Assembly: GCA_938028665.1 (NCBI GenBank)
Contig: CALIMB010000016.1
Span: 1 to 55,476, forward strand
Direction: 5' to 3'
Length of the DNA: 55,476 bases
From: an uncultured Thermomicrobium sp.
GTDB lineage: Bacteria; Chloroflexota; Chloroflexia; Thermomicrobiales; Thermomicrobiaceae
Shown here: positions 33,360 through 50,475 of the stretch, piece by piece
Layout of the letters: every line of letters starts with the position of its first letter
Numbering within the stretch: the first letter of the stretch is position 1
Program-made: the position numbers and the translations under genes
Notes under the pieces: model-generated
What the model saw: only the letters and a program-made list of their open reading frames with translations
Told to the model about the DNA's origin: nothing
The model's database searches: none

Positions 33360-34010
33360 GTGATGTGCGTGCGTGCCCTTGGCAAGCTGGGGTTGATCGT
33401 AAGCTGGCTTGCAGCGACGGTCCTTGCTTGGGGTCTTGTGTATTCACTTGTTGTGCGAGAGAACGTTGGAGCTGTGCAGGACTTTTGGGCACTCAAGCGA
33501 TTGCTCGCGTATGGTGCCTTCCTCATTGCACCAGCTTTGACCTTTGCCCCACTGGGTCGGCTTGTCCGTGTGCCGTTTTTAGAGATCGAAGCGGTTGCTG
33601 GCTGGTCAACCAGTCTTTTTGTTTGGACCTTCATCGATCCCGACCAGGTGAGAGGGCCACTCGCGATGCTCGTCGTGTTGCTTCCGCTTCTTGTCAGTGT
33701 CTCATCCGTCTTCACTCTGCTCAGTGCTGCGGTAGAACTGCGCTTGGCAACTCGCCGCGCCATCCTCCCAGATCCCCTCCGGGTACGCCGGCGAGGATAC
33801 GTGCTCGGCCTTTTCTCCGTCGGCTGCCTCTTGCTTCACTCCCTCGAAGCTCTCACAGCCATCAATCTGGGATTGCTTGCACTCATTGCGTTCCTCGTTG
33901 AACTTTTGGCCATGACCTGGTTCGCCCCGGTGCGAGAGAGAGGAGACGAAAACGGTGGCTCGACTGGGGATCGACGTCGGCGGAACGAATACGGACGCGG
34001 TGCTCCTTGA
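33360..34010 (+). CDS. Multi-span membrane protein of unknown family
   Basis: The 216-residue protein has about six hydrophobic helices, beginning with [22 protein letters not shown] and ending with [19 protein letters not shown], and a hydrophilic tail of about 25 residues. That tail overlaps the next gene by 56 bases. It starts at GTG 33360 or ATG 33363. The tail reads like run-on translation. The overlap suggests coupling to the hydantoinase-like gene, so a transport or anchoring role for that pathway is possible but unproven. I do not recognise the family. Confidence 0.65.
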
Positions 34011-35499
34011 TCGCGGTGAAGTTCTCGCATGGGCAAAACACCCAACGACGCCCGACGTTAGCAGCGGCATCCTTGCTGCGGTCCGGGACGTGCTTGGACA
34101 AGCACCACTCGCACCATCCGAGATCAGCGCCGTCATGCTTGGCACCACACATTTCACCAATGCTGTCGTCCAGCGTCGTGATCTTGCCCGCAGCGCGGTC
34201 ATCCGCTTGGGACTGCCAGCAACCACCTCGATTCCACCACTTGAGGACTGGCCCGATGATTTGCGTGACGCTGTTGCTGAACTGACAGTGATCCTCCCAG
34301 GAGGCCATCAGTTCGACGGCCGGGAGATCTCCCCACTCGATTGGCAGGCCCTCAAGCAGCTCGCGGAGGAGTTACGGAGACGAGGAGTCGACACCGCAGC
34401 AGTCACTGCGGTTTTTTCGCCCGCCATCCCTACGCATGAGAATGCCGTCGCAGAGTTTCTCACTGCACACGTTCCTGGACTTCGTGTCACCTGCTCACGG
34501 GAAATCGGTCGGATCGGATTGCTCGAACGAGAGAATGCGGCAGCGCTGAATGCAGCACTCGTCCCACTCGCCGAGCGGACGGTCCGCGCCTTCCAGCAAG
34601 CACTGAGCAGGCTCGGTTTAGAGGCTCCGCTCTACCTCAGCCAGAATGACGGAACGCTCATGACAGCTGAGTTTGCAGCGCGCTATCCAGTACTCACCTT
34701 CGCCTCAGGCCCAACCAATTCGATGCGCGGAGCTGCCGTCTTGAGCGGACTCAGTGACGCGATCGTCCTCGATGTCGGTGGTACGACAACCGACGGTGGC
34801 GCACTCGTCAACGGCTTTCCGCGTGAGGCCTCGTTCGCCGTAGTGATCGGTGGTGTGCGTACCAACTTCCGCATGCCGGACGTCGTTTCGATTGGCCTGG
34901 GTGGTGGAAGCTTGGTCGGGCCAGACGGCTCAACGGTGGGACCACAGAGTGTTGGATACCGCCTGAGCAGCGAGGCGCTTGTCTTTGGTGGTTCGAGACT
35001 TACCGCAAGCGATATCGCTGTCGCGGCTCGACGCGCCCGGTTCGGTGATCCCTCTCGCGTCGCGCATCTGCCGACCGAGCTCGTGCGACAAGCACTGGCG
35101 ACGATCGATCAGCGACTCGCCGAGCTCGTTGATAGCTTGAAAACGACACCTGGAGCAGTGCCGGTCATCGTCGTTGGAGGTGGGAGTGTGCTTGTCCCGG
35201 ATCACTTGGAAGGGGCAAGCGAGGTCATTCGCCCGCCTCATGCTGCAGTGGCGAACGCAATCGGTGCGGCGATTGCCCAGGTAAGCGGTGAGATCGACCG
35301 GATTGTTTCCCTCGAGGGGCAGACGCGCGAGGCCGCGCTAGCCGCGGCTCGTGCCGATGCCTGCCGTGCTGCCGTGGCTGCCGGGGCTGACCCGGCAAGC
35401 GTCACTGTCGTCGAGCTGGAGGAAATACCGATCGCCTATCTCCCGTCGAATGCCGTGCGAATCCGTGTCAAGGCCGTCGGCGATTTGCGGGGAGGTTAA
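33955..35499 (+). CDS. Hydantoinase/oxoprolinase family protein (short HyuA type)
   Basis: The 514-residue protein has the ATP-dependent hydantoinase fold. It begins [21 protein letters not shown] (phosphate loop), followed by MLGTTHFTNAVVQRRD. LLERENAAALNAAL, FASGPTNSMRGAAVLSG and the second phosphate loop DVGGTTTDGG are all typical. It lacks the long C-terminal part of 5-oxoprolinase. Such proteins hydrolyse cyclic amides, usually with ATP, often with a partner. GTG 33955 follows GAGAGGAG. The next gene, two bases on, encodes a DUF917 protein, a pairing seen in many genomes (family knowledge). Substrate is unknown. Confidence 0.92.
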   Translation: MARLGIDVGGTNTDAVLLDRGEVLAWAKHPTTPDVSSGILAAVRDVLGQAPLAPSEISAVMLGTTHFTNAVVQRRDLARSAVIRLGLPATTSIPPLEDWPDDLRDAVAELTVILPGGHQFDGREISPLDWQALKQLAEELRRRGVDTAAVTAVFSPAIPTHENAVAEFLTAHVPGLRVTCSREIGRIGLLERENAAALNAALVPLAERTVRAFQQALSRLGLEAPLYLSQNDGTLMTAEFAARYPVLTFASGPTNSMRGAAVLSGLSDAIVLDVGGTTTDGGALVNGFPREASFAVVIGGVRTNFRMPDVVSIGLGGGSLVGPDGSTVGPQSVGYRLSSEALVFGGSRLTASDIAVAARRARFGDPSRVAHLPTELVRQALATIDQRLAELVDSLKTTPGAVPVIVVGGGSVLVPDHLEGASEVIRPPHAAVANAIGAAIAQVSGEIDRIVSLEGQTREAALAAARADACRAAVAAGADPASVTVVELEEIPIAYLPSNAVRIRVKAVGDLRGG

Positions 35500-35501
35500 A
35501 C

Positions 35502-36629
35502 ATGGTCTGGGAGCTGGATGAAGCGTGCGTGGAAGCATTGGCCATCGGCGCTGGCATCTTGGGCACGGGTGGCGGTGGAAATCCATACTACGGCAAGCTC
35601 TACGTTCGCAGACTGCTGCGCGAGGGACGACGTGTGTACATCGTCGCACCGGAAGACGTGCCGGACGATGCACTCGTCGTCTCGGTCGGGGGGATGGGTG
35701 CGCCAACGATCGGGATTGAACGGATCCACCGCGGAGACGAACCGCTCGCAGCGCTGCGCGCTCTCGAGCAGTATCTGGGACAGAGCGTGACGCATCTGGT
35801 ACCTGGCGAGATCGGTGGAGCGAACGCACTGCGTCCCCTTGCAGTCGCGGCGCTTGCCGAGCTCCCGGTCGTTGATGGGGACGGCATGGGACGCGCATTT
35901 CCGGAGCTGCAGATGGACACCTTTGCCATCTACGGTATCTCTGCGACGCCGGCCGCACTGGCGGATATCGAACACAACATTGTTCTCTTCCCACGGCTGC
36001 GCGATGCGTACACGTTAGAGCGATATGCTCGCGCCGTGACAGTGCAGATGGGTGGTGCTGCCGGCTTTGCCTTCCCAGTCATGAGCGGCACAGAGCTTCG
36101 CCGCGTTGTCATCCCCTATACGATCAGCCTCGCCGTGCAACTGGGAGAAGCAGTGTTGTCCGCTCGCAAGGAACATACTGACCCAGTTGCAGCCGCCCTT
36201 GCCGTCACTGGTGGCTCCCTGCTGTTTTACGGCAAAGTGATCGACGTCGAACGCCGCTTGTCTGCAGGCTTTGCGCGGGGAACGGTGCGGTTGGAAGGAC
36301 TTGGTGAGGATCGAGGGAGTGAACTCCAGATCGAGTTTCAGAATGAGAACCTGATTGCCCGTCGAGACGGCCAGGTCATTGCCACAGTACCCGATCTCAT
36401 CTGCCTGGTAGACCAGGAAACGGCGGAACCGGTCACAACCGAGGTCGTACGGTATGGCCTCCGCATCGCTGTACTCGGCATCCCAGCACCAGCGATGCTC
36501 CGAACACCAGAAGCGCTGGCCGTGGTAGGGCCTGCCGCCTTTGGGTATAGAGATGTGGCGTATCATCCGCTACCCGGAACCTATGGGGGAGATCGTCTCG
36601 CGGCAGAGCGGAGCGCAACAACTCAGTAG
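35502..36629 (+). CDS. DUF917 family protein
   Basis: The 375-residue protein starts with the glycine-rich GAGILGTGGGGNPYYGKLYVRR, and contains GGMGAPTIGIERI, PGEIGGANALRPLAVAA and VVDGDGMGRAFPELQM, all typical of DUF917, also named the S-methyl thiohydantoin desulfurase domain in Pfam as I recall. Its product is cytosolic. It starts 2 bases after the hydantoinase-like gene, which it probably partners. A sulfur-containing or ordinary hydantoin is a reasonable guess for the substrate. It overlaps yggT on the other strand by 7 bases. Confidence 0.9.
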   Translation: MVWELDEACVEALAIGAGILGTGGGGNPYYGKLYVRRLLREGRRVYIVAPEDVPDDALVVSVGGMGAPTIGIERIHRGDEPLAALRALEQYLGQSVTHLVPGEIGGANALRPLAVAALAELPVVDGDGMGRAFPELQMDTFAIYGISATPAALADIEHNIVLFPRLRDAYTLERYARAVTVQMGGAAGFAFPVMSGTELRRVVIPYTISLAVQLGEAVLSARKEHTDPVAAALAVTGGSLLFYGKVIDVERRLSAGFARGTVRLEGLGEDRGSELQIEFQNENLIARRDGQVIATVPDLICLVDQETAEPVTTEVVRYGLRIAVLGIPAPAMLRTPEALAVVGPAAFGYRDVAYHPLPGTYGGDRLAAERSATTQ

Positions 36630-41204: not shown

Positions 41205-41441
41205 TCAATGGGACGACGGCTCCGGTCCGTGAGGGGGTGCATCCGTGACGGCACTCAGCAGTATCGTTTTGTGAGCGAAGTGTCGGTGCATCCAGTCGAG
41301 ATACTCCCAGCGGTTGCGTACAATTCGCGCTTGATCGACATCATTGACATCCTGCAGGACACGGGTCATGAGAGTCGGGTCCACCTCAAAGACGTGCAAG
41401 TCCTCCCGCCGCAGGACCACACCCTGGCGAATCTGCTTCAT
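41205..41441 (-). CDS. Small protein coupled to the FAD oxidoreductase, unknown
   Basis: The 78-residue protein begins at an ATG that overlaps the stop of the upstream gene (ATGA), with GGAG six bases before, so it is clearly translated from the same message. It is soluble and charged, with VLRREDLHVFEVDPTLMTRVL and RNRWEYLDWMHRHF as its most structured-looking parts, and a disordered Pro-rich end. No known family is recognised. Its place as the last gene of the operon suggests an accessory or chaperone-like role for the oxidoreductase, which is inference. Confidence 0.7.
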   Translation of the reverse strand: MKQIRQGVVLRREDLHVFEVDPTLMTRVLQDVNDVDQARIVRNRWEYLDWMHRHFAHKTILLSAVTDAPPHGPEPSSH

Positions 41442-42973
41442 GCTCCAACCTCCTCGTCCACGTAGGCAAGGTGGAGATAATTCTTGCTTGGATTGAGGAT
41501 ATTATTCGGATCGAGCAGGCGCTTAATTTTCTTCATGAGCTCAAATCCACCCTCACCGAGTTCCACGGGAATGAACTCAGCATCACCCTCGCGACAAGCT
41601 CCGTGGCAGGCGCTGATTGAGCCTTGGTGTTCCAGTGTTGCCCGGGTAATCTCCCGCTTGAGGTTCACCCAGGCCTGCCATGTCTCCTCATTGAGTGCCT
41701 GTTCCCAGATACCAATGTCAATTTCGACGAGATAGTCACCCCAGCCTTTATACGGATTATTGCTATAGAAGAACATCCCCCAGTTGTCAAAGATCCCATA
41801 CTTCTGGATATACCGGTCAGTAATCTCGTGCCACTTCTGCTTGATAGCGGGAAGCTCGGAATAAATGATGGCTGCATCCTCACAGTGCCAGCTCATTGGG
41901 ACAACGGTGCCATCGGGCAACCGACCGTGGAGCGGCGTGGCATAGCGATCATGACGCGATGCCCAGTCTCCAGCAGATAGCTCATCACCCAGATATTCGC
42001 CGCCAGTCTCCTTGGCGAGACGGAAGAGACGATTGGCAGCGGCACGGACTTCGTCTTCGACTCCATAGAGCGCTGTAGCCACAACGGCCTTAATCCGCTC
42101 AGGGAGTGGAATATACGCCTCATCATCACGACGCAGGTAGTCAACCTTCCGCTCATCAAAGAGGATCACGGCAGCGAGAGTACCGAGCCCAGACGTGGAC
42201 AGGGCACCCGTACTCCGATAGGCGTCTGCAAACGATTCGTAGCCGAAGAAGGCTGCCAACTCAGCCTCTGGCTTTGGGAACAGTTCCAGCGTGGCCTCAG
42301 TCACCACTCCCAAGGTGCCCTGCGTACCAATAAAGAGCTGCTTGAGATTATAGCCGGTCGAAGCCTTCCGGACTTTTGGTGCTCCACCACCATCACTGAG
42401 GCGAACAATCTCGCCAGTTGGCAGGACCACTTGGAGGCTGATGACGAGATCGCGCGTGTGGCCGTACCGCGAGCCAATGAGCGACCATCCACTCGTCCCG
42501 ATGCGCCCACCAATGATTGAGACAGGATAGGATGCTGGATCATCAGGATAAAAGACACCATACGGAGCCAGATACTCATTCAGCTTGAGCATATTGAGTC
42601 CAGGTTGAACAGTTACGGTTCGATTGACCAAATCAAGTTCGATAATCTTGTTCATTTTCTTAATGTCCAGCAGAATCCCTTTGTGGAGGGGAACCGCACC
42701 GTCAGCCAACCCGGTACCACCAGCTCGTGGCACAACAGGGACACGAAACTGGTTGGCAATCCGTAGCACAGCCGAGACCTCCTCGGCTGACTCAGGCAAG
42801 ACCACCACGTCCGGCATGTACTCGGCAAAGCGATGCACCGGGAAGGGGGCTGGTACGCGAGTTCGCGCGATGCGTGCACCCAGGTCAGTACGAACTTTCT
42901 CTTTTCCTATTGCCTGCTCGAGGGCGGTGATCACCTGATCGGTGACCGGATTCGGTACCGTCAGCGTTGCCAT
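41438..42973 (-). CDS. FAD-binding oxidoreductase of the GlcD / VAO type
   Basis: The 511-residue protein has the PCMH-type FAD domain, with PDVVVLPESAEEVSAVLRIA, the pyrophosphate loop VPRAGGTGLADGAVP and a long GTSGWSLIGSRYGHTRD region, then a substrate domain and the C-terminal KIKRLLDPNNILNPSKNYL seen in this family. Relatives oxidise 2-hydroxyacids (GlcD, D-lactate dehydrogenase) or phenols. It follows an Fe-S protein by 18 bases, as in the GlcD-GlcF arrangement, so electrons probably leave through that subunit to quinone or another carrier. The ATG at 42973 follows GGGAGG. The substrate may be linked to the nucleobase genes around it, which is inference. Confidence 0.9.
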   Translation of the reverse strand: MATLTVPNPVTDQVITALEQAIGKEKVRTDLGARIARTRVPAPFPVHRFAEYMPDVVVLPESAEEVSAVLRIANQFRVPVVPRAGGTGLADGAVPLHKGILLDIKKMNKIIELDLVNRTVTVQPGLNMLKLNEYLAPYGVFYPDDPASYPVSIIGGRIGTSGWSLIGSRYGHTRDLVISLQVVLPTGEIVRLSDGGGAPKVRKASTGYNLKQLFIGTQGTLGVVTEATLELFPKPEAELAAFFGYESFADAYRSTGALSTSGLGTLAAVILFDERKVDYLRRDDEAYIPLPERIKAVVATALYGVEDEVRAAANRLFRLAKETGGEYLGDELSAGDWASRHDRYATPLHGRLPDGTVVPMSWHCEDAAIIYSELPAIKQKWHEITDRYIQKYGIFDNWGMFFYSNNPYKGWGDYLVEIDIGIWEQALNEETWQAWVNLKREITRATLEHQGSISACHGACREGDAEFIPVELGEGGFELMKKIKRLLDPNNILNPSKNYLHLAYVDEEVGA

Positions 42974-42991
42974 GACAGCCTCCCTGCCACC

Positions 42992-44257
42992 TCAATCATT
43001 CAGCCCCATCGCCTCGGCAACCAACTCCAGGAGATCGAGTACCTCAAGTTGTTGCTCGCGGCCAGAGGACGTGAGCGGGCGCTCTGACCACGGGCAGGCG
43101 CTCACCAAGGCCTCCACATTCAACTCCTTGGCACGCGCAATCCGCAGGTCAGCAATCTTCTTCGCCAAGTCCGGATGCTCCACGGCAAAACCACCGCCGG
43201 CACCGGAGCAATACGCCCACTGGGTGACATGATCGACATCAATGAAGGTCAGCCCAGGAATAGCACGGAGAATCTTGCGCGGAGCCTCCCACTTGCCTAG
43301 TCGCTTGTTCATCCGACAAGGATCATGGTAGGTCACTGTCTTCTCAATCGGCTTGACGAAGCGAATCTTCCCTTCATCCAAAAGCTGAGCAACAAAATCG
43401 ATCATAAAGACAAACTCCGGCAACTCCTCAGGCGGGAAGAACTGCGGATACATCTCAACAAAGCTAATGTAGTCATGCGGATCAAGGACGAAGACACGCT
43501 TTGCTCCGGCTTTCTTCCAATCAGCCACGTTGTGTTCTGCAAGATAGCGCGCATGGTCCGGATAACCCATCTCGAGCGAGGGACCACCACAACACCACTG
43601 TTCATACATCAAGCCAAACGGGACACCAGCAGCGTGCAGAATCTTTGCCACCGCTTTGGGCAGGCTCGTGCGATGATACGCAGCCTCACAGTCCACAAAC
43701 AGAATGTTTTCCCCACCCTGCGGGATGCTGAACGGAAGGTCCTTCGCCCAATCAGCGACGCGATTCGGATCGACCGGCTGGATGTTCTCATAATCCAGAA
43801 CAGGCTCGTTCTTGCCCTGCAGCGTCGCCTCGACCCAGCGTTGCCATCGCGGCCACAGGCCGAGTCCAGCCTTCGTGGCAGCAGCACGCATATCCTGCAC
43901 AAGCTTCACTGTACGCGTACGATTCCGATAGAAGTCACCAACAAAGAGCGTGTTCGGGCAACGCAGTTCACAGCCACCACAGAGGGTACAGTAGCTGTAG
44001 TTTTCGGCAACATCTTCAAGACGAGCGGCCCCCTTCTCCATTGCCACGACGTTGGCATGGAATGCCGTCGGTGTGTGCTGCTCATTCCGCGTCACTTGGT
44101 AGACCGGGCAGACCTCACGACAAAACTTGTGACCGGAGCTAAAGCAGCCATAGGCCTGCAGGAGGTGGTCCCGCACGAACTCCTGCTCAATCTCCCGCAC
44201 GCCGTTGTGACCATTTGCTGCAACGTCCGGCTTTGCTGCGCGTACCTCATCACCCAT
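42992..44257 (-). CDS. Fe-S oxidoreductase subunit (GlcF/HdrB CCG-domain type)
   Basis: The 421-residue protein carries an N-terminal ferredoxin-like part and two C-terminal cysteine-rich CCG-type domains (WCCGGPSLEMGY with DPCR, and YCSGAGGGF). The second 4Fe-4S motif, C90-x2-C93-x2-C96-x3-C100-P, is canonical. The first one is odd: C38-x4-H43-x2-C46-x3-C50-P, where the usual CxxCxxC is replaced by a Cys two positions early and a His. It probably accepts electrons from the FAD subunit encoded next. ATG 44257 follows GGGGAGGG seven bases upstream and is preferred over two upstream codons. There are no membrane helices. Confidence 0.88.
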   Translation of the reverse strand: MGDEVRAAKPDVAANGHNGVREIEQEFVRDHLLQAYGCFSSGHKFCREVCPVYQVTRNEQHTPTAFHANVVAMEKGAARLEDVAENYSYCTLCGGCELRCPNTLFVGDFYRNRTRTVKLVQDMRAAATKAGLGLWPRWQRWVEATLQGKNEPVLDYENIQPVDPNRVADWAKDLPFSIPQGGENILFVDCEAAYHRTSLPKAVAKILHAAGVPFGLMYEQWCCGGPSLEMGYPDHARYLAEHNVADWKKAGAKRVFVLDPHDYISFVEMYPQFFPPEELPEFVFMIDFVAQLLDEGKIRFVKPIEKTVTYHDPCRMNKRLGKWEAPRKILRAIPGLTFIDVDHVTQWAYCSGAGGGFAVEHPDLAKKIADLRIARAKELNVEALVSACPWSERPLTSSGREQQLEVLDLLELVAEAMGLND

Positions 44258-44302
44258 TGACGGTCCCTCCCCGCTCGTCATCGACAGCACCGCGACACGA
44301 CC

Positions 44303-45718
44303 TCACTTGCCTCTCTGGACAACCACTTCCTCCCGCTGCGGAACTGAAAGCCGCCGCGTCAGGAAGGTGAGCCCCAAGTACATGGCCGCAGTCACAAAGA
44401 AGGTCGGAATACCAGCGGTCACATAGGTAAACAATGGACCAGCCCGATCGGTTGCCGGGTCGTAGGTCCAGAAGTAGAAGAGTCCGCCAATGACAACAGC
44501 TACGTAAGCCTCCCAGTTAAACCCAGCAACATACTGATAGCGTCCAGCATGCTGTCGGAAGAGATCGCGCAACGAGATGTGGAAGCGCTGCACGAAGACA
44601 TAGTCAGCCACCATGACTCCGCCAAAGGCTGCCATGATGAAGGAAATATAGGCAAGGAACTTTGTGTAAGTGTCATACATGGTGGGCGTGAGCATGAGCA
44701 AGGCAGCAGGAATAGTGGTGAAGAGCGCCCATTGCCACTTCCAGCGAGGGAAAAGCGTCTTTATGCTCAGGCTCTGGGAATAGATGAGCACGGTCGCCGA
44801 GGTCAGGTTTGCCAGGATCAGCATGAACAGCCCAAAGAGTCCAAAGAGGGGGCCACCCGCCTCGAGCATCCACTCAGTCGGCTCATAGGTGCCAACAAGA
44901 AGGGCTGTCAGTGCACCAAGAATCGCTGCGACGTTGAGCAGAACACCCCATCCCAAATACGTCCCAATCAGGGCTGTTCGCTCATCTCTTGCCAGGCGAT
45001 TCCACTGCCCAATAGAGGGAAGCCAGGAGAAGCCCAAACCAACGTTCCACTCAATCGCTGACGCCAGCCCACGGACTGGGGTGTCATACGGTGCTGGTGG
45101 TTGGGCATTCCACACCGCCGACACACCGTTGTGTATGAAAATGTAGAAGATCAACCCAAGAATAATCAGCACCATCGCCGGAACACCAACACGGATAAAG
45201 AGGCGAATGGCAATCGGCCCTTGCAGCGCTAACCACCAGGCAACAGCGAAGGCGACAATGGCGAAGATCGGCGCGCCGACCGTCCGTGAGGCTAGCCACT
45301 CCGGTGCCCCGAAAGCAGCCGCGACCCGGATCGCCGACTCTCCCAACATGAAGCAGGCGATCGTAATCCATCCAAGATTCAAGATTGCAAAGATGATGAG
45401 GAACAAATTACTCCCACGAGGACCAAGAATGGCGCGCGCACCGATGAACGTGTCCACACCGTACCGGCTATAGAGCACCGCTAATACACTTATGAGAAAA
45501 ACGGGAATCGCGTTTCCAAAGAGAATTGCGGCGATCGCTGGCCCAGCCGGCAGCACCGACCCGGTGTAGCCTCCAACCAGGAAACTCCACGCTGCAATCC
45601 CCAATCCAACCTGCACGAGGAGGAAATCGAGCAGCCCAAACTGCCGCTCTGTCCGGAGCACCGGGAGAATACCGAAGTAAACCTCCCGTTGGATGGATTG
45701 CTCTCCCTCTTCAGCCAT
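44303..45718 (-). CDS. NCS1 family nucleobase permease (cytosine/purine type)
   Basis: The 471-residue membrane protein has 12 predicted helices and follows the nucleobase-cation-symport-1 pattern: QVGLGIAAWSFLVGGYTG in helix 1, RAILGPRGSNLFLIIFAILNLGW, a central WNVGLGFSWLPSIGQWNRLARD and LFTTIPAALLMLTPTMY near the end. NCS1 carriers take up cytosine, purines, uracil, allantoin or hydantoins with a proton or sodium ion. The CodA-like deaminase nearby favours cytosine or a related base. ATG 45718 is preceded, 31 bases away, by the stop of the 59-residue gene. Confidence 0.92.
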   Translation of the reverse strand: MAEEGEQSIQREVYFGILPVLRTERQFGLLDFLLVQVGLGIAAWSFLVGGYTGSVLPAGPAIAAILFGNAIPVFLISVLAVLYSRYGVDTFIGARAILGPRGSNLFLIIFAILNLGWITIACFMLGESAIRVAAAFGAPEWLASRTVGAPIFAIVAFAVAWWLALQGPIAIRLFIRVGVPAMVLIILGLIFYIFIHNGVSAVWNAQPPAPYDTPVRGLASAIEWNVGLGFSWLPSIGQWNRLARDERTALIGTYLGWGVLLNVAAILGALTALLVGTYEPTEWMLEAGGPLFGLFGLFMLILANLTSATVLIYSQSLSIKTLFPRWKWQWALFTTIPAALLMLTPTMYDTYTKFLAYISFIMAAFGGVMVADYVFVQRFHISLRDLFRQHAGRYQYVAGFNWEAYVAVVIGGLFYFWTYDPATDRAGPLFTYVTAGIPTFFVTAAMYLGLTFLTRRLSVPQREEVVVQRGK

Positions 45719-45749
45719 CCCTTACCCACTCCCACCACTACGTACCGCT

Positions 45750-45929
45750 CTACCGGTGCAGCAAGAGATTGAGGACGAGAACCGCAAAGAGGAAGAGCAC
45801 CACAGCCGTTACCACCCACATATAAACCCAGTCAAGGTTGGTGAAGGGCTCCGGCCGCTCCCCAGATTCGATCCGCCCAACACGCTCCTCCAGTTCCGCT
45901 CGCAGCTGTGGATCCAAGTAATGCTCCAT
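45750..45929 (-). CDS. Small single-span membrane protein upstream of the NCS1 permease
   Basis: The 59-residue protein has a charged N-terminal half (LRAELEERVGRIESGERPEP) and one hydrophobic helix (LDWVYMWVVTAVVLFLFAVLVLN). ATG 45929 follows AGGGGGTG. It is the first gene of the operon and immediately precedes the permease. Small membrane partners are known for several transporter families, so it may be an accessory subunit of the permease; this is inference. I do not recognise the family. Confidence 0.72.
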   Translation of the reverse strand: MEHYLDPQLRAELEERVGRIESGERPEPFTNLDWVYMWVVTAVVLFLFAVLVLNLLLHR

Positions 45930-46222
45930 CGTCACCCCCTAACCGACCTCTGACCCTGCTTCTCGCCCAGCACGCAGCACAGAGACAGCGCACAAGACCG
46001 ACGGCGATAAATCAATGTTTTTGAGACAAAGGCTCAACGAAAAATTAGACACATAGACAAAAACTGCCGAGCTGCACAACCCATGGACATCCGGGCAAAC
46101 TCTGTACCCCTGGAGCTGCCAAAGTATAGGTTCGCTCCGTGCTGATGTCTCGCGACGCATCGGTTATACTGCCTCCGGTGCGGATGAGCCAAGGAGTAGT
46201 CACGAGGGAAGGGGTTGTAGAC
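45930..46222. other. Divergent regulatory region of the N-heterocycle cluster
   Basis: About 290 bases separate the permease operon from the Mo-hydroxylase gene. The middle (about 46005-46070) is AT-rich. TATACT at 46165-46170 may be a -10 box for the plus-strand gene, with a weak -35. An inverted repeat TTGAG-n7-CTCAA lies at 46021-46037 and could be an operator. No regulator gene lies in the cluster. Confidence 0.45.
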
Positions 46223-48556
46223 ATGGTGCTCAGTCGAATGGTCGGAGCTCGTGTTCGCCGCAAGGAAGATCCTCGGCTCATTACTGGCACCTCGCTGTAT
46301 GTCGATGACATAACGCTACCTGGTATGCTCTATGCGGCCTTCGTGCGCAGCACCTACCCGCATGCGATTCTCAAGAAGGTGGACGCCTCAGCGGCACTGG
46401 CCATGCCGGGTGTGGTCGCCGTCATCACTGCAGAGCAGTTGGGCCGCTGGTTGAAGGGTGCCGCGCACCTCAGCGGTGGCGAGGGGGAAGGAGACGCTTC
46501 GTCTCACCAGGAGGCCCCAGCCGGACCGCCACAGCACGAGCTCCTGGCCATCGATCGTGTTCGATACGTCGGTCAGCCGATCGCCGTTGTCCTGGCCTCC
46601 GAACGCTATCGTGCCTACGACGCAGCAGCAGCTATCCAGGTTGAATACGAGCCACTCCCAGCCGTTGTCGACCCCGAGGAGGCGATGAAGGACGGTGCAC
46701 CGCAACTCCATGCGACACTCCAGAACAACATCGCAATGCATACCAGTCATCAGCACGGCGACGTTGAGAGGGCGTTCGCTGAGGCAGATATCGTCGTCAA
46801 GCAACGTTTTTACCAGCAACGCCTCGTCTCGAACGCCTTGGAGCCACGGGCCGTTGTCGCCGCTCCCGAGCCACTCACACGAGGGGTCACGGTCTGGTCA
46901 TCGACCCAAGCACCCCATAACAATCGGAAGACGCTGGCCCAGGCACTGGGGCTGAGTCATGCTCAGGTCCGGGTTGTCGCACCGGAGGTCGGCGGTGGCT
47001 TTGGAGCCAAGATCGGCGCTTACCCAGAGGACATTATCCTTGCGGCCATTGCTCTCCACCTTCATCGACCTGTCAAATGGTATGAAACGCGTTCGGAGCA
47101 CTTCCTTGCCACCAATCAGGGGCGGGGGCAAGTCGCCTACTATGAACTGGCCGCGACAAAGGAGGGACGGATTCTTGGCCTGCGTCTCAAGGTGATCCAG
47201 GATCTGGGCGCCTATCCCAAGGTCATGCTCTTGGCACGACTCACGGCAATGATGTCGGTCGGTGTGTATGACATCCCTAATCTTTCAATCGAGACGTACA
47301 GCGTCTGCACAAATACCACGCCTGTCGGTGCCTACCGTGGTGCTGGTCGGCCAGAAGCGGCCTACTACATTGAACGGATGATGGATCTGTTAGCTCGCAA
47401 GCTCGGCAAGGATCCGGCCGAGGTGCGACGCCTCAACTACATCCCACCAGACAAGTTCCCCTACCAGACCCCCGCCGGCGCTCGGTACGATTCAGCCGAG
47501 TACGAAAAGTCATTGAAGAAGGCGCTCGAGATCTCGCACTACACTGAGTGGCGGCAGAAGCAGCAGGAACTCCGACAGCAGGGACGCTACATCGGCATCG
47601 GGCTGGCCACATACACGGAAATTTGCGGCTTCGGCCCTTACGAGACCGCCTCCATTCGGGTGGAGCCAACAGGAGCGGTCATCGCCTATACAGGCACGTC
47701 TCCACACGGGCAGGGACTGGAGACGGCATTTGCGCAGATTATCGCGGATGAGATCGGCGCTGACTTCGACCAGATCGTTGTCCTGCACGGTGACACTCAG
47801 AGCGTGCCGGAAGGTATCGGGACGATGGGCAGTCGGAGCTTAGCCGTCGGCGGCGGTGCAATGCTGGTGGCCGCTCAGCGTATCCGGGAGAAGGCGCTCC
47901 GCATCGCCGCACACTTGCTCGAGGCAGCGGTGGAGGACATGGAGTACGTCGACGGGAAGTACCGGGTCAAGGGAGCCCCCGACCGTGCGGTCACCCTCGC
48001 CCAGATCGCCGAGGCTGCCTATAGTCCAGGGCTTCCCGCTGACATCGAACCGGGACTCGTTGTGACCGACTATTATGCGCCGCCCGGAACACTGTTCCCC
48101 TTTGGCACCCATGTGGCAGTTGTGGAGGTCTTCCCAGAGACTGGCGAGGTCAAACTCCTCGAATACTACGCAGTCGATGACTGCGGCCCCCGCATCAACC
48201 CCCTCCTCGTCGAAGGCCAAGTCCACGGAGGCCTCGCCCAGGGCATCGCCCAGGCCCTCTGGGAAGAGGTGCGCTACGACGACTCCGGCCAGCTCCTCAC
48301 CGGCACCCTCATGGACTACGCCCTCCCGAAAGCCCACCTCCTGCCACAGTTCGTCACCGACGAGACCATCACCCCAAGCCCCCTCAACCCCCTCGGCGCT
48401 AAGGGGATCGGTGAGGCCGCGACCATCGGTTCTACCCCCACCATCGCCAACGCTGTCCTCGATGCCCTCACCCCCTTCGGTCTCGAGCACCTCGATATCC
48501 CCTTCACCCCAGAAAAACTCTGGCGCGCTATCCAGCAGGCCAAGGCTCGTGCCTGA
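46223..48556 (+). CDS. Xanthine-dehydrogenase-family molybdopterin-binding (large) subunit
   Basis: The 777-residue protein belongs to the molybdenum hydroxylase large subunits. Domain motifs are RRKEDPRLITGTSLYVDDI at the N-terminus, GGGFGAKIGAYPEDI, GAYRGAGRPEAAYYIERM and the C-terminal GAKGIGEAATIGSTPTIANAV with the catalytic Glu. The AYRGAGR form fits the xanthine/CoxL form II branch rather than the true CO dehydrogenase with AYRCSFR. No small Fe-S subunit or FAD subunit of the usual heterotrimer is encoded next to it. ATG 46223 follows AAGGGG. The start is divergent from the permease operon and a hairpin follows the gene. It would hydroxylate a heteroaromatic ring or aldehyde. Confidence 0.92.
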   Translation: MVLSRMVGARVRRKEDPRLITGTSLYVDDITLPGMLYAAFVRSTYPHAILKKVDASAALAMPGVVAVITAEQLGRWLKGAAHLSGGEGEGDASSHQEAPAGPPQHELLAIDRVRYVGQPIAVVLASERYRAYDAAAAIQVEYEPLPAVVDPEEAMKDGAPQLHATLQNNIAMHTSHQHGDVERAFAEADIVVKQRFYQQRLVSNALEPRAVVAAPEPLTRGVTVWSSTQAPHNNRKTLAQALGLSHAQVRVVAPEVGGGFGAKIGAYPEDIILAAIALHLHRPVKWYETRSEHFLATNQGRGQVAYYELAATKEGRILGLRLKVIQDLGAYPKVMLLARLTAMMSVGVYDIPNLSIETYSVCTNTTPVGAYRGAGRPEAAYYIERMMDLLARKLGKDPAEVRRLNYIPPDKFPYQTPAGARYDSAEYEKSLKKALEISHYTEWRQKQQELRQQGRYIGIGLATYTEICGFGPYETASIRVEPTGAVIAYTGTSPHGQGLETAFAQIIADEIGADFDQIVVLHGDTQSVPEGIGTMGSRSLAVGGGAMLVAAQRIREKALRIAAHLLEAAVEDMEYVDGKYRVKGAPDRAVTLAQIAEAAYSPGLPADIEPGLVVTDYYAPPGTLFPFGTHVAVVEVFPETGEVKLLEYYAVDDCGPRINPLLVEGQVHGGLAQGIAQALWEEVRYDDSGQLLTGTLMDYALPKAHLLPQFVTDETITPSPLNPLGAKGIGEAATIGSTPTIANAVLDALTPFGLEHLDIPFTPEKLWRAIQQAKARA

Positions 48557-48572
48557 AGGGCAGCAAGGGAGA

Positions 48573-48610
48573 AACCGGGTGGTGCCTCAGCAGAGAGGCA
48601 CCACCCGGTT
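48573..48610 (+). terminator. Perfect hairpin between convergent genes
   Basis: A 16-bp perfect stem, AACCGGGTGGTGCCTC (48573-48588) with GAGGCACCACCCGGTT (48595-48610), has a 6-base loop. It lies 16 bases after the Mo-hydroxylase stop. T-runs are lacking on both sides. It could end transcripts from both directions, being about 100 bases from the codA-like stop. Confidence 0.65.
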
Positions 48611-48712
48611 CATGTGCCTCGGCTCTGAGGGGGCTTCCTCCTGCCTACGCATCTTGGACCCGCAGGCATGCGACACCGCAAATTGCCCTTGTGGGCGGAT
48701 CAGCGAAACGAG

Positions 48713-50026
48713 CTAAACCGCCGATGAGCCACTGAGCAAAAGCCCCTCACCCGGCCGCTCGTAGCGAATAGGGTGAAAAGTCTCGCCACGTTGCACCTCG
48801 ACGCGCGGCGGCGTGGTACGACTTATCACACGCCCAGCTTTCACACACCAAAGTGCTGGTGCCAGCATGCGCAGCGCATCACGGTCGCTTGCCGCATCAA
48901 AGATCACAAAGTCGGCCAGTTTGCCAATCTCGATGCCGTAGCGATCAACAATCCCGATTGCTTTTGCAGCATTGGTCGTCACCAGATCCCAGACGAGCGG
49001 AATCTCCTCGTAGCCAGAGAGTTGAGCCATGTGGAGCCCAAGCCAGGCTGCGTGGAGCATGTTGCCTGTTCCCAATGGATACCAGGGATCCATGACCGAA
49101 TCGTGTCCGAAGGCAACGTTGATCCCAAAGGCAAGAAGCTCCTTGACGCGTGTCATCCCGCGACGCTTGGGATAGGTATCAAACCGACCTTGCAAGAGTG
49201 AATTGTCTGGTGGATTTGCAATGATGCTCAGCTCAGCCCGCTTGAGCCAGCCAAACAGCTTAAATGCATAGGCATTGTTGTACGACCCCATTGCTGTGGT
49301 GTGACTTGCCACAATACGCCCTTGCAGCCCGCGGCGAATCGTCTCAGCGGCCATCACTTCGACAAAACGGGATTGGTCGTCATCGGTCTCGTCGCAGTGG
49401 GCGTCAAGCGGTCGGTCATAGCGCTCAGCCAGCTCGAAGGCGATACGCAGCGATTCAACTCCCATCTCTCGCGTTGTCTCGTAATGGGGAATCGCACCTA
49501 CAACGTCACAGCCGAGACGTAAGGCTTCTTCGAGAAGCTCTGCACCACGCGGATAGGAGAGAATTCCCTCCTGCGGGAAGGCAACAAGCTGAAGATCGAC
49601 CAGGTGACGCATCTCCTCACGCACCTCGAGCAGGGCACGCAGCCCAACGAAGTTCGGATCACAAACGTCGACATGACTACGAATGACAAGGGCACCCTGA
49701 GTCGCATACCACTCGATCGTCCTTTTGGCACGCTCCTTGACTGCTTCGATAGTGAGCTGCGGCTTGGTCTGTGCCCAACGCTGGATCCCCTCAAGAAGCG
49801 TTCCCGACTCGTTATGACCGGCCAGCCCTTCGGTGAGCGCAGCGTCGAGGTGGCAGTGCGGTTCGATCAGCGGTGGTGAGAGAAGTCTTCCTCCCGCATC
49901 AATCGTCTCTGTTGCCTCATAAGCGAGCGCTGAGTCAATGGCAACGATTCGCCCCTCGGCAACAGCAATGTCGACCAATCGGCCGTCGCGGAGCCGTGCG
50001 CGGCGAACTATCAGGTCGTATGCCAT
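48713..50026 (-). CDS. CodA-like cytosine deaminase family amidohydrolase
   Basis: The 437-residue protein aligns from end to end with E. coli cytosine deaminase CodA by motifs recalled from that protein: EPHCHLDA (metal ligands H57, H59), FPQEGILSYP, HCDETDDDQSRFVE (H210, catalytic E213), SHTTAMGSYNNAY (H242), LQGRFDTYPKRRGMTRVKE and FGHDSVMDPWYPLGT (D309). The residue after the metal-binding Asp is Ser310, where E. coli has Asp314; changes at that position are known to alter substrate preference. The enzyme thus deaminates a cytosine-like base or another heterocycle. It faces the Mo-hydroxylase gene and is near the NCS1 permease. Confidence 0.88.
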   Translation of the reverse strand: MAYDLIVRRARLRDGRLVDIAVAEGRIVAIDSALAYEATETIDAGGRLLSPPLIEPHCHLDAALTEGLAGHNESGTLLEGIQRWAQTKPQLTIEAVKERAKRTIEWYATQGALVIRSHVDVCDPNFVGLRALLEVREEMRHLVDLQLVAFPQEGILSYPRGAELLEEALRLGCDVVGAIPHYETTREMGVESLRIAFELAERYDRPLDAHCDETDDDQSRFVEVMAAETIRRGLQGRIVASHTTAMGSYNNAYAFKLFGWLKRAELSIIANPPDNSLLQGRFDTYPKRRGMTRVKELLAFGINVAFGHDSVMDPWYPLGTGNMLHAAWLGLHMAQLSGYEEIPLVWDLVTTNAAKAIGIVDRYGIEIGKLADFVIFDAASDRDALRMLAPALWCVKAGRVISRTTPPRVEVQRGETFHPIRYERPGEGLLLSGSSAV

Positions 50027-50256: not shown

Positions 50257-50475
50257 ATGTTCGAGGGGCTGTTCCAGCTGAGTCACCTGCTGTTGATTCT
50301 CCTGATCGTGTTAATTGTTTTCGGCCCTGGCAAGTTGCCTGAAGTTGGCGCAGCGATCGGCCGCAGCATCCGCGAGTTCCGACACAGCGTTCGTGACGCC
50401 ACCGCCGGAGAGGCACAGCCACCCGGGGCATCCATGAGTGACCAACACTCACTTTCGAATCAGCAGCCACAGTGA
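50257..50475 (+). CDS. tatA: Twin-arginine translocase subunit TatA
   Basis: The 72-residue protein has the TatA/E layout: a short periplasmic start, one membrane helix ([18 protein letters not shown]), a hinge and an amphipathic helix ([19 protein letters not shown]), then a disordered tail. It forms the pore-like assembly for folded proteins carrying RR signals. It stands alone here without tatC. The two ABC binding lipoproteins in the window have Tat-like RR motifs and could be clients, which is inference. Confidence 0.93.

Follow-up and report, generated by a model that had tools for sequence, protein, structure and literature searches.

An NCS1 permease, a small membrane protein and a GlcD-like redox trio in Thermomicrobium: an operon that may import and oxidise an organic cation

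Which genes of a crowded 9-kb stretch in a Thermomicrobium genome belong to one system, and what would that system take up and oxidise? The question is raised by positions 41205 to 50026 of contig CALIMB010000016.1 from an uncultured Thermomicrobium sp. (assembly GCA_938028665.1), a stretch of 55,476 nucleotides to which we refer in full as the window and which makes up contig 16 in a genome of 2.78 Mb. An earlier note had combined an NCS1 permease with a 59-amino-acid partner, a CodA-like deaminase, a lone Mo-hydroxylase large subunit, a GlcD-like flavoprotein, a CCG Fe-S protein and a 78-amino-acid protein into a single route for the uptake and oxidation of an N-heterocycle. All of these genes are indeed present within the 9 kb, arranged in three transcription units rather than as one system. 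The first unit is a five-gene minus-strand operon (45929 down to 41205) in the order p59, NCS1 permease, CCG protein, GlcD-like flavoprotein and p78, with intergenic gaps of about 31, 45, 18 and -4 bp; neither p59 nor p78 was matched by any Pfam family. The second unit is the gene of a CoxL-type Mo-hydroxylase large subunit, divergent from p59, and the third is codA, convergent to coxL. The operon consists of the following features.

45750..45929, minus strand: p59, putative small NCS1 partner with a soluble N-terminus and one C-terminal transmembrane (TM) helix, 59 amino acids (open reading frame (ORF) and hydropathy)
44303..45718, minus strand: NCS1 permease of the MetT-containing clade, predicted organic-cation importer (PF02133, 76 bits; tree; Trp alignment with MetT)
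42992..44257 (start may be 44290), minus strand: CCG/4Fe-4S protein (PF02754 twice and PF13183)
41438..42973, minus strand: GlcD-like FAD oxidoreductase, probable catalytic subunit (PF01565 and PF02913)
41205..41441, minus strand: p78, small soluble 78-amino-acid protein, translationally coupled to glcD (4-bp overlap)

Only this operon is the conserved module, because in another phylum the trio of CCG protein, GlcD-like protein and p78 is joined by the same type of NCS1 and a small membrane protein. At locus L065 of the Actinomycetota, one strand carries CCG-GlcD-p78-p73(TM)-NCS1-LLM, with an NCS1 41% identical to that of the window; nothing supports their joint function more strongly than these same five components recurring in another order and in another phylum. 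An orthologous locus (L035, 64%) in an uncultured actinobacterium emerged from a scan of GTDB genomes, and GlcD orthologues with about 60-67% identity to the window GlcD occur in 9 of 396 sampled Actinomycetota genomes, giving seven new loci besides L035 and its near-copy in genome G497. Across the nine actinobacterial loci that were read (eight flanks plus L035), a p78 orthologue adjoins GlcD in eight, the ninth (L069) ending at a contig edge, and an LLM oxidoreductase is adjacent to the trio in seven; CoxL and CodA are found in none. A Georgenia plasmid holds a further CCG-GlcD pair. The trio is conserved across two phyla, and a sample of 400 Chloroflexota genomes has the GlcD orthologue only in the genus of the window; additional class- and order-level searches for it gave zero new loci.

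Within the genus, where the close relatives are Thermomicrobium sp. CFH 73360, the metagenome-assembled genome SKW109, Bacterium HR27 and Bacterium HR28, the stretch is syntenic wherever contigs permit a view, and CFH 73360 has the operon. In Bacterium HR28 a deletion (L036 9855-10557) took p59, NCS1, CCG and residues 1-398 of GlcD; CodA, two CoxL copies and an intact p78 were retained. CodA and CoxL show no linkage to the operon beyond the genus and are probably just its neighbours. Thus, the proposed uptake and oxidation system is supported for p59, NCS1, CCG, GlcD and p78 and not for CodA and CoxL, which the nine actinobacterial loci lack and HR28 keeps. The conservation in relatives to which the earlier note had tied its proposal was found for the five operon genes, which recur in another phylum.

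What, then, does the permease carry? The window NCS1 is the sole PF02133 gene of its genome and lies outside the clade of CodB, Mhp1 and AllW, which covers nucleobases, hydantoin and allantoin. A tree of 27 NCS1 proteins splits at 100/100 into 15 with a small partner and 12 canonical ones, and the window protein groups with MetT homologues (MetT is represented by a homologue from a Pseudomonas metformin plasmid). MetT is an Aminobacter NCS1 that imports metformin with a Km of about 16 uM and forms a clade of its own; it depends on W43, W117 and W231, as the W43A, W117A and W231A variants retain 2.2, 9.0 and 11.2% of uptake (PMC13390362). These residues align with W44, W117 and W232 of the window NCS1. 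The Trp at the W231 position is present in all clade members tested and in 0 of the 12 canonical proteins, that at W43 in all clade members but two (Ile in Bacillus, Tyr in B. multivorans) and in one of the 12 controls, and W117 is a general NCS1 residue. The Mhp1 ligand contacts Q121 and N314 are both Ala in the window protein, position 314 being read from a low-identity alignment. By its sequence, the window NCS1 belongs to the MetT clade and is a predicted organic-cation importer.

Across the clade, most neighbours of NCS1 encode enzymes of amines, guanidines or aldehydes, and the best plasmid relatives of the window protein lie mostly outside nucleobase loci. The closest named relative (45% identity), on a Bacillus badius plasmid, stands with genes for a haem-dependent N-demethylase alpha subunit, a DmmA-like protein, a reductase, HemA and a betaine-aldehyde-dehydrogenase-like protein. 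The hemA gene in this cluster, for glutamyl-tRNA reductase (L085 10596-11939), perhaps serves haem supply. On Pseudomonas metformin plasmids the permease is accompanied by HypA/HypB and two arginase-family proteins (the metformin-hydrolase genes); in Ensifer, Roseateles and Gemmobacter by agmatinase, choline dehydrogenase and either aldehyde dehydrogenase (ALDH) or SDR genes; in Thioclava by agmatinase and ALDH; in rhizobia by ALDH and EutQ; and at another locus by LLM, ALDH and BCCT.

The second hallmark of the clade is the small ORF in front of the permease gene. A same-strand ORF of 50-99 amino acids with a hydrophobic C-terminal helix lies directly upstream of NCS1 in 17 of 17 clade loci, its position ranging from a 4-bp overlap with the permease gene to a distance of 67 bp, and a small upstream TM ORF (41 amino acids) is present at one of 11 canonical control loci. 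The test was mechanical (Kyte-Doolittle), its thresholds were set after the clade had been seen and the loci are not phylogenetically independent; therefore, these counts give strong support for an association between small ORF and clade, and not a calibrated probability. We found no report of such a partner in the literature, and the MetT paper (PMC13390362) is silent under the terms tried; one "hypothetical protein" listed for a shared metformin region (PMC9800807) could be this ORF. p59 would act as a helper subunit of the permease. In none of three Pseudomonas metformin-plasmid loci (L087 7771-9374, L110 950-2568 and L111 upstream of 675) are small partner and permease intact or stopped alike: a stop hits one gene, never both. 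On the KHPS2 plasmid, for instance, the small ORF is intact and the permease has a stop at codon 25.

The remaining three proteins look like GlcDF in architecture, and their best NCBIfam matches are of the GlcD and TfrB/GlpC types. By the tests applied they would not be a glycolate dehydrogenase, because the metal motif is absent, the first cluster motif contains His and GlcE is absent. More specifically, alignment with E. coli GlcD shows that the GlcD-like protein lacks HAGDGNMH (H-x-GDGN-x-H) and reads ACHG for GEHG, and its score of 231 for the GlcD equivalog TIGR00387 falls far below the cutoff, 568. In the CCG protein the first cluster motif is C-x4-H-x2-C-x3-CP, with C38, H43, C46 and C50 invariant in 11 orthologues, whereas E. 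coli GlcF has four Cys there; the second CCG motif is the canonical CxxCxxCxxxCP. No GlcE gene was found in the window operon or beside the actinobacterial trios. Most GlcD-like orthologues conserve WHCEDA, FD(N/D)WGMF and VEID(I/V)GIWEQ, aromatic and acidic residues that would suit a cationic substrate, and this protein is the probable catalytic subunit. For p78, whose AlphaFold model has a pLDDT of 71.6, no convincing fold match was found; it is a possible third subunit or assembly factor.

Taken together, we propose that the operon imports an organic cation and then oxidises it, a reading whose chances we judge to be evenly balanced. NCS1 with its p59 helper would take up the cation, which may be a methylated amine, a choline-like or a guanidino compound; the GlcD-like subunit would dehydrogenate it, the CCG protein with its His/Cys-ligated cluster would hand the electrons on to quinone or another carrier, and p78 would assist. 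CoxL and CodA would operate separately. As to the class of substrate, an organic cation is likelier than an N-heterocycle. A wider version, in which the whole NCS1 clade including the MetT homologues consists of cation symporters of two components, one of them an undescribed single-TM subunit, and GlcD, the His-containing CCG protein and p78 make up an amine or amino-alcohol dehydrogenase of a new type that Thermomicrobiota and Actinomycetota have in common, is tentative and, in our estimate, somewhat unlikely.

Several observations weigh against import and oxidation of a cation by this operon. NCS1 accompanies the trio in only one of the nine actinobacterial loci (L065), and the redox module therefore also functions in its absence. 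The small partner may be non-essential, because in P. mendocina MET-2 and Pseudomonas sp. KHPS1 its plasmid-borne gene is interrupted by an in-frame stop that separates the soluble part from the TM part. Identity between the window NCS1 and the Pseudomonas MetT homologue is only about 32%, the nearest plasmid relative (Bacillus) has Ile and Tyr at positions 43 and 117, and the close relatives of the window protein carry no established substrate. MetT F47 and T260 are replaced by V48 and L260/L261, therefore metformin itself is not implied. Finally, the AlphaFold model of the GlcD-like protein is unusable (mean pLDDT 41.5).

How do other explanations fare with the same evidence? The trio might be a conventional dehydrogenase of 2-hydroxy acids (lactate or glycolate), with NCS1-p59 as an unrelated passenger. 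The GlcD and CCG domains and their best family matches fit this, as do the GntR regulators next to the trio in Georgenia and probably at locus L070, a common setting of lactate and glycolate genes, and the absence of NCS1 from most actinobacterial loci. However, the lost HAGDGNMH motif and Glu of GEHG, the missing GlcE, the His in place of Cys and the low TIGR00387 score all speak against it, and so does the trio being joined by the same NCS1 type in two phyla with differing gene orders; we consider it unlikely. Quite unlikely, too, is a role of the trio in a C1 or F420-linked step, working with a Mer-like LLM protein in Actinomycetota, with NCS1 importing a methylated donor and the operon forming a demethylation module. 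In its favour, the LLM protein that adjoins seven of the nine trios is related to F420-dependent methylene-tetrahydromethanopterin reductase, and at one locus oxidase-like and homocysteine-methyltransferase-like genes lie some 5 kb away. Yet in Thermomicrobium no Mer-like orthologue was found, only generic LLM proteins with best matches of 28-33%, and the Mer score is 205 against a cutoff of 348.

The N-heterocycle pathway of the earlier note, in which NCS1 imports cytosine, 5-methylcytosine, hydantoin or a purine, CodA deaminates it, the Mo enzyme hydroxylates it and the GlcD pair oxidises it further, we regard as the least probable of these readings. It would account for all genes lying within 9 kb in an arrangement repeated in the genus, for a genuine CodA relative that has the Ser of a 5-methylcytosine deaminase, and for the permease being the genome's sole PF02133 gene. 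On the other hand, CodA and CoxL lie outside the operon, are missing from the actinobacterial loci and outlive the loss of the permease; the divergent region is unconserved; and the permease, grouped with MetT homologues and devoid of Mhp1 Q121 and N314, falls outside the nucleobase clade.

Some further observations, which favour the cation reading, concern the actinobacterial surroundings of the trio. Some GlcD loci lie near aminobutyraldehyde-dehydrogenase-like, TmpA-like, TmpB-like and N-methyltryptophan/sarcosine-oxidase-like genes; at two (L067 12845-14631, L068 11314-13052), TmpA-like (gamma-butyrobetaine/trimethylaminoethylphosphonate dioxygenase) and TmpB-like HD genes adjoin GlcD, CCG and p78. 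Separately, members of the Mer-related LLM family (L035, L064-L069), which is uncharacterised in function, occur without the trio as well, on megaplasmids of Streptomyces clavuligerus (53%).

Turning to the neighbours of the operon, three further features complete the stretch.

45930..46237, no strand: divergent region between the p59 operon and coxL (no conserved shared operator; no known riboswitch)
46238..48556, plus strand: lone CoxL-type form II (AYRGAGR) Mo-hydroxylase large subunit, neighbour outside the conserved module
48713..50026, minus strand: CodA-like deaminase with Ser replacing E. coli CodA Asp314, neighbour outside the conserved module (NCBIfam PRK09230)

The divergent region had been taken as a sign of co-regulation. 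A shared operator for NCS1 and CoxL was rejected, as the alignment in relatives shows conservation of the coxL leader alone; the region is poorly kept within the genus and therefore gives no evidence of co-regulation. No Rfam riboswitch (e.g., guanidine) was matched in the window or in seven related loci. From homology in relatives, the true start of coxL is at about 46238, not 46139. The CoxL-type subunit stands alone, its partner subunit genes being absent locally; five other Mo-hydroxylase clusters exist in the genome, with large subunits (34-49% identity) encoded close to the FAD and 2Fe-2S subunit genes of the same cluster. Aerobic CO dehydrogenase was rejected as its identity: the protein carries AYRGAGR, which we take to mark form II CoxL and not the CO-oxidising form I with AYXCSFR, and it scores 693.6 bits against TIGR02416, below the cutoff of 991. 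Two relatives have tandem lone CoxL-type genes (L034 1624-6717, L036 4574-9855; identities of 72-73% and 92% to that of the window), whereas the window has just one.

The CodA-like protein scores 541.6 bits (cutoff 483) against PRK09230 and has Ser where E. coli CodA carries Asp314, which keeps 5-methylcytosine out; Kpn00632, a characterised 5-methylcytosine deaminase, likewise has Ser there (PMC6186785). The predicted substrate of the CodA-like protein is 5-methylcytosine, cytosine or both. Beyond codA, a TatA/E-like 72-amino-acid ORF (50257-50475, plus strand) precedes MurJ. On the other side, 5 kb from the operon and on the opposite strand, lie a HyuA-type hydantoinase/oxoprolinase gene and then an S-Me-THD (DUF917) gene (33955-36629); at locus L107, a DUF917 gene comes after a CodB-like permease.

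These predictions matter since NCS1 genes are usually annotated as "cytosine permease". If the clade carries organic cations via a small subunit, many plasmid and chromosome annotations are wrong in one direction, and uptake assays may need a missing gene to be co-expressed. With the trio would come a flavin/Fe-S dehydrogenase that is uncharacterised, spans phyla and has an unusual cluster motif containing His, and the CodA variant is a thermophilic candidate deaminase for 5-methylcytosine or 5-fluorocytosine.

Finally, how does the operon compare with known systems? With E. coli GlcDEF it shares a FAD_binding_4 plus FAD-oxidase_C subunit next to a CCG/4Fe-4S subunit, but it differs in having no GlcE, metal motif or GEHG Glu, in the His of the first Fe-S motif, in the extra p78 and in scores far below equivalog cutoffs. 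Sodium:solute symporters are known to have small partners (ActP-YjcH/DUF485, DUF4212 and YhdT-PanF), where a tiny membrane protein is encoded beside a LeuT-fold transporter; p59, in contrast, has a single TM helix and no Pfam match, and belongs to an NCS1 transporter. The permease shares the family fold and the general W117 with Mhp1, CodB and AllW, yet these form the separate clade and, at all but one of the 11 control loci, lack a small upstream TM ORF, and the Mhp1 contacts Q121 and N314 are Ala in the window protein. Compared with MetT, the window permease has about 32% identity, does not keep F47 and T260, and has no metformin-hydrolase or nickel chaperone genes beside it; nevertheless, homologues of MetT group with it apart from CodB, AllW and Mhp1, the three Trp positions are shared, and the Pseudomonas metformin plasmids carry a small upstream TM ORF.

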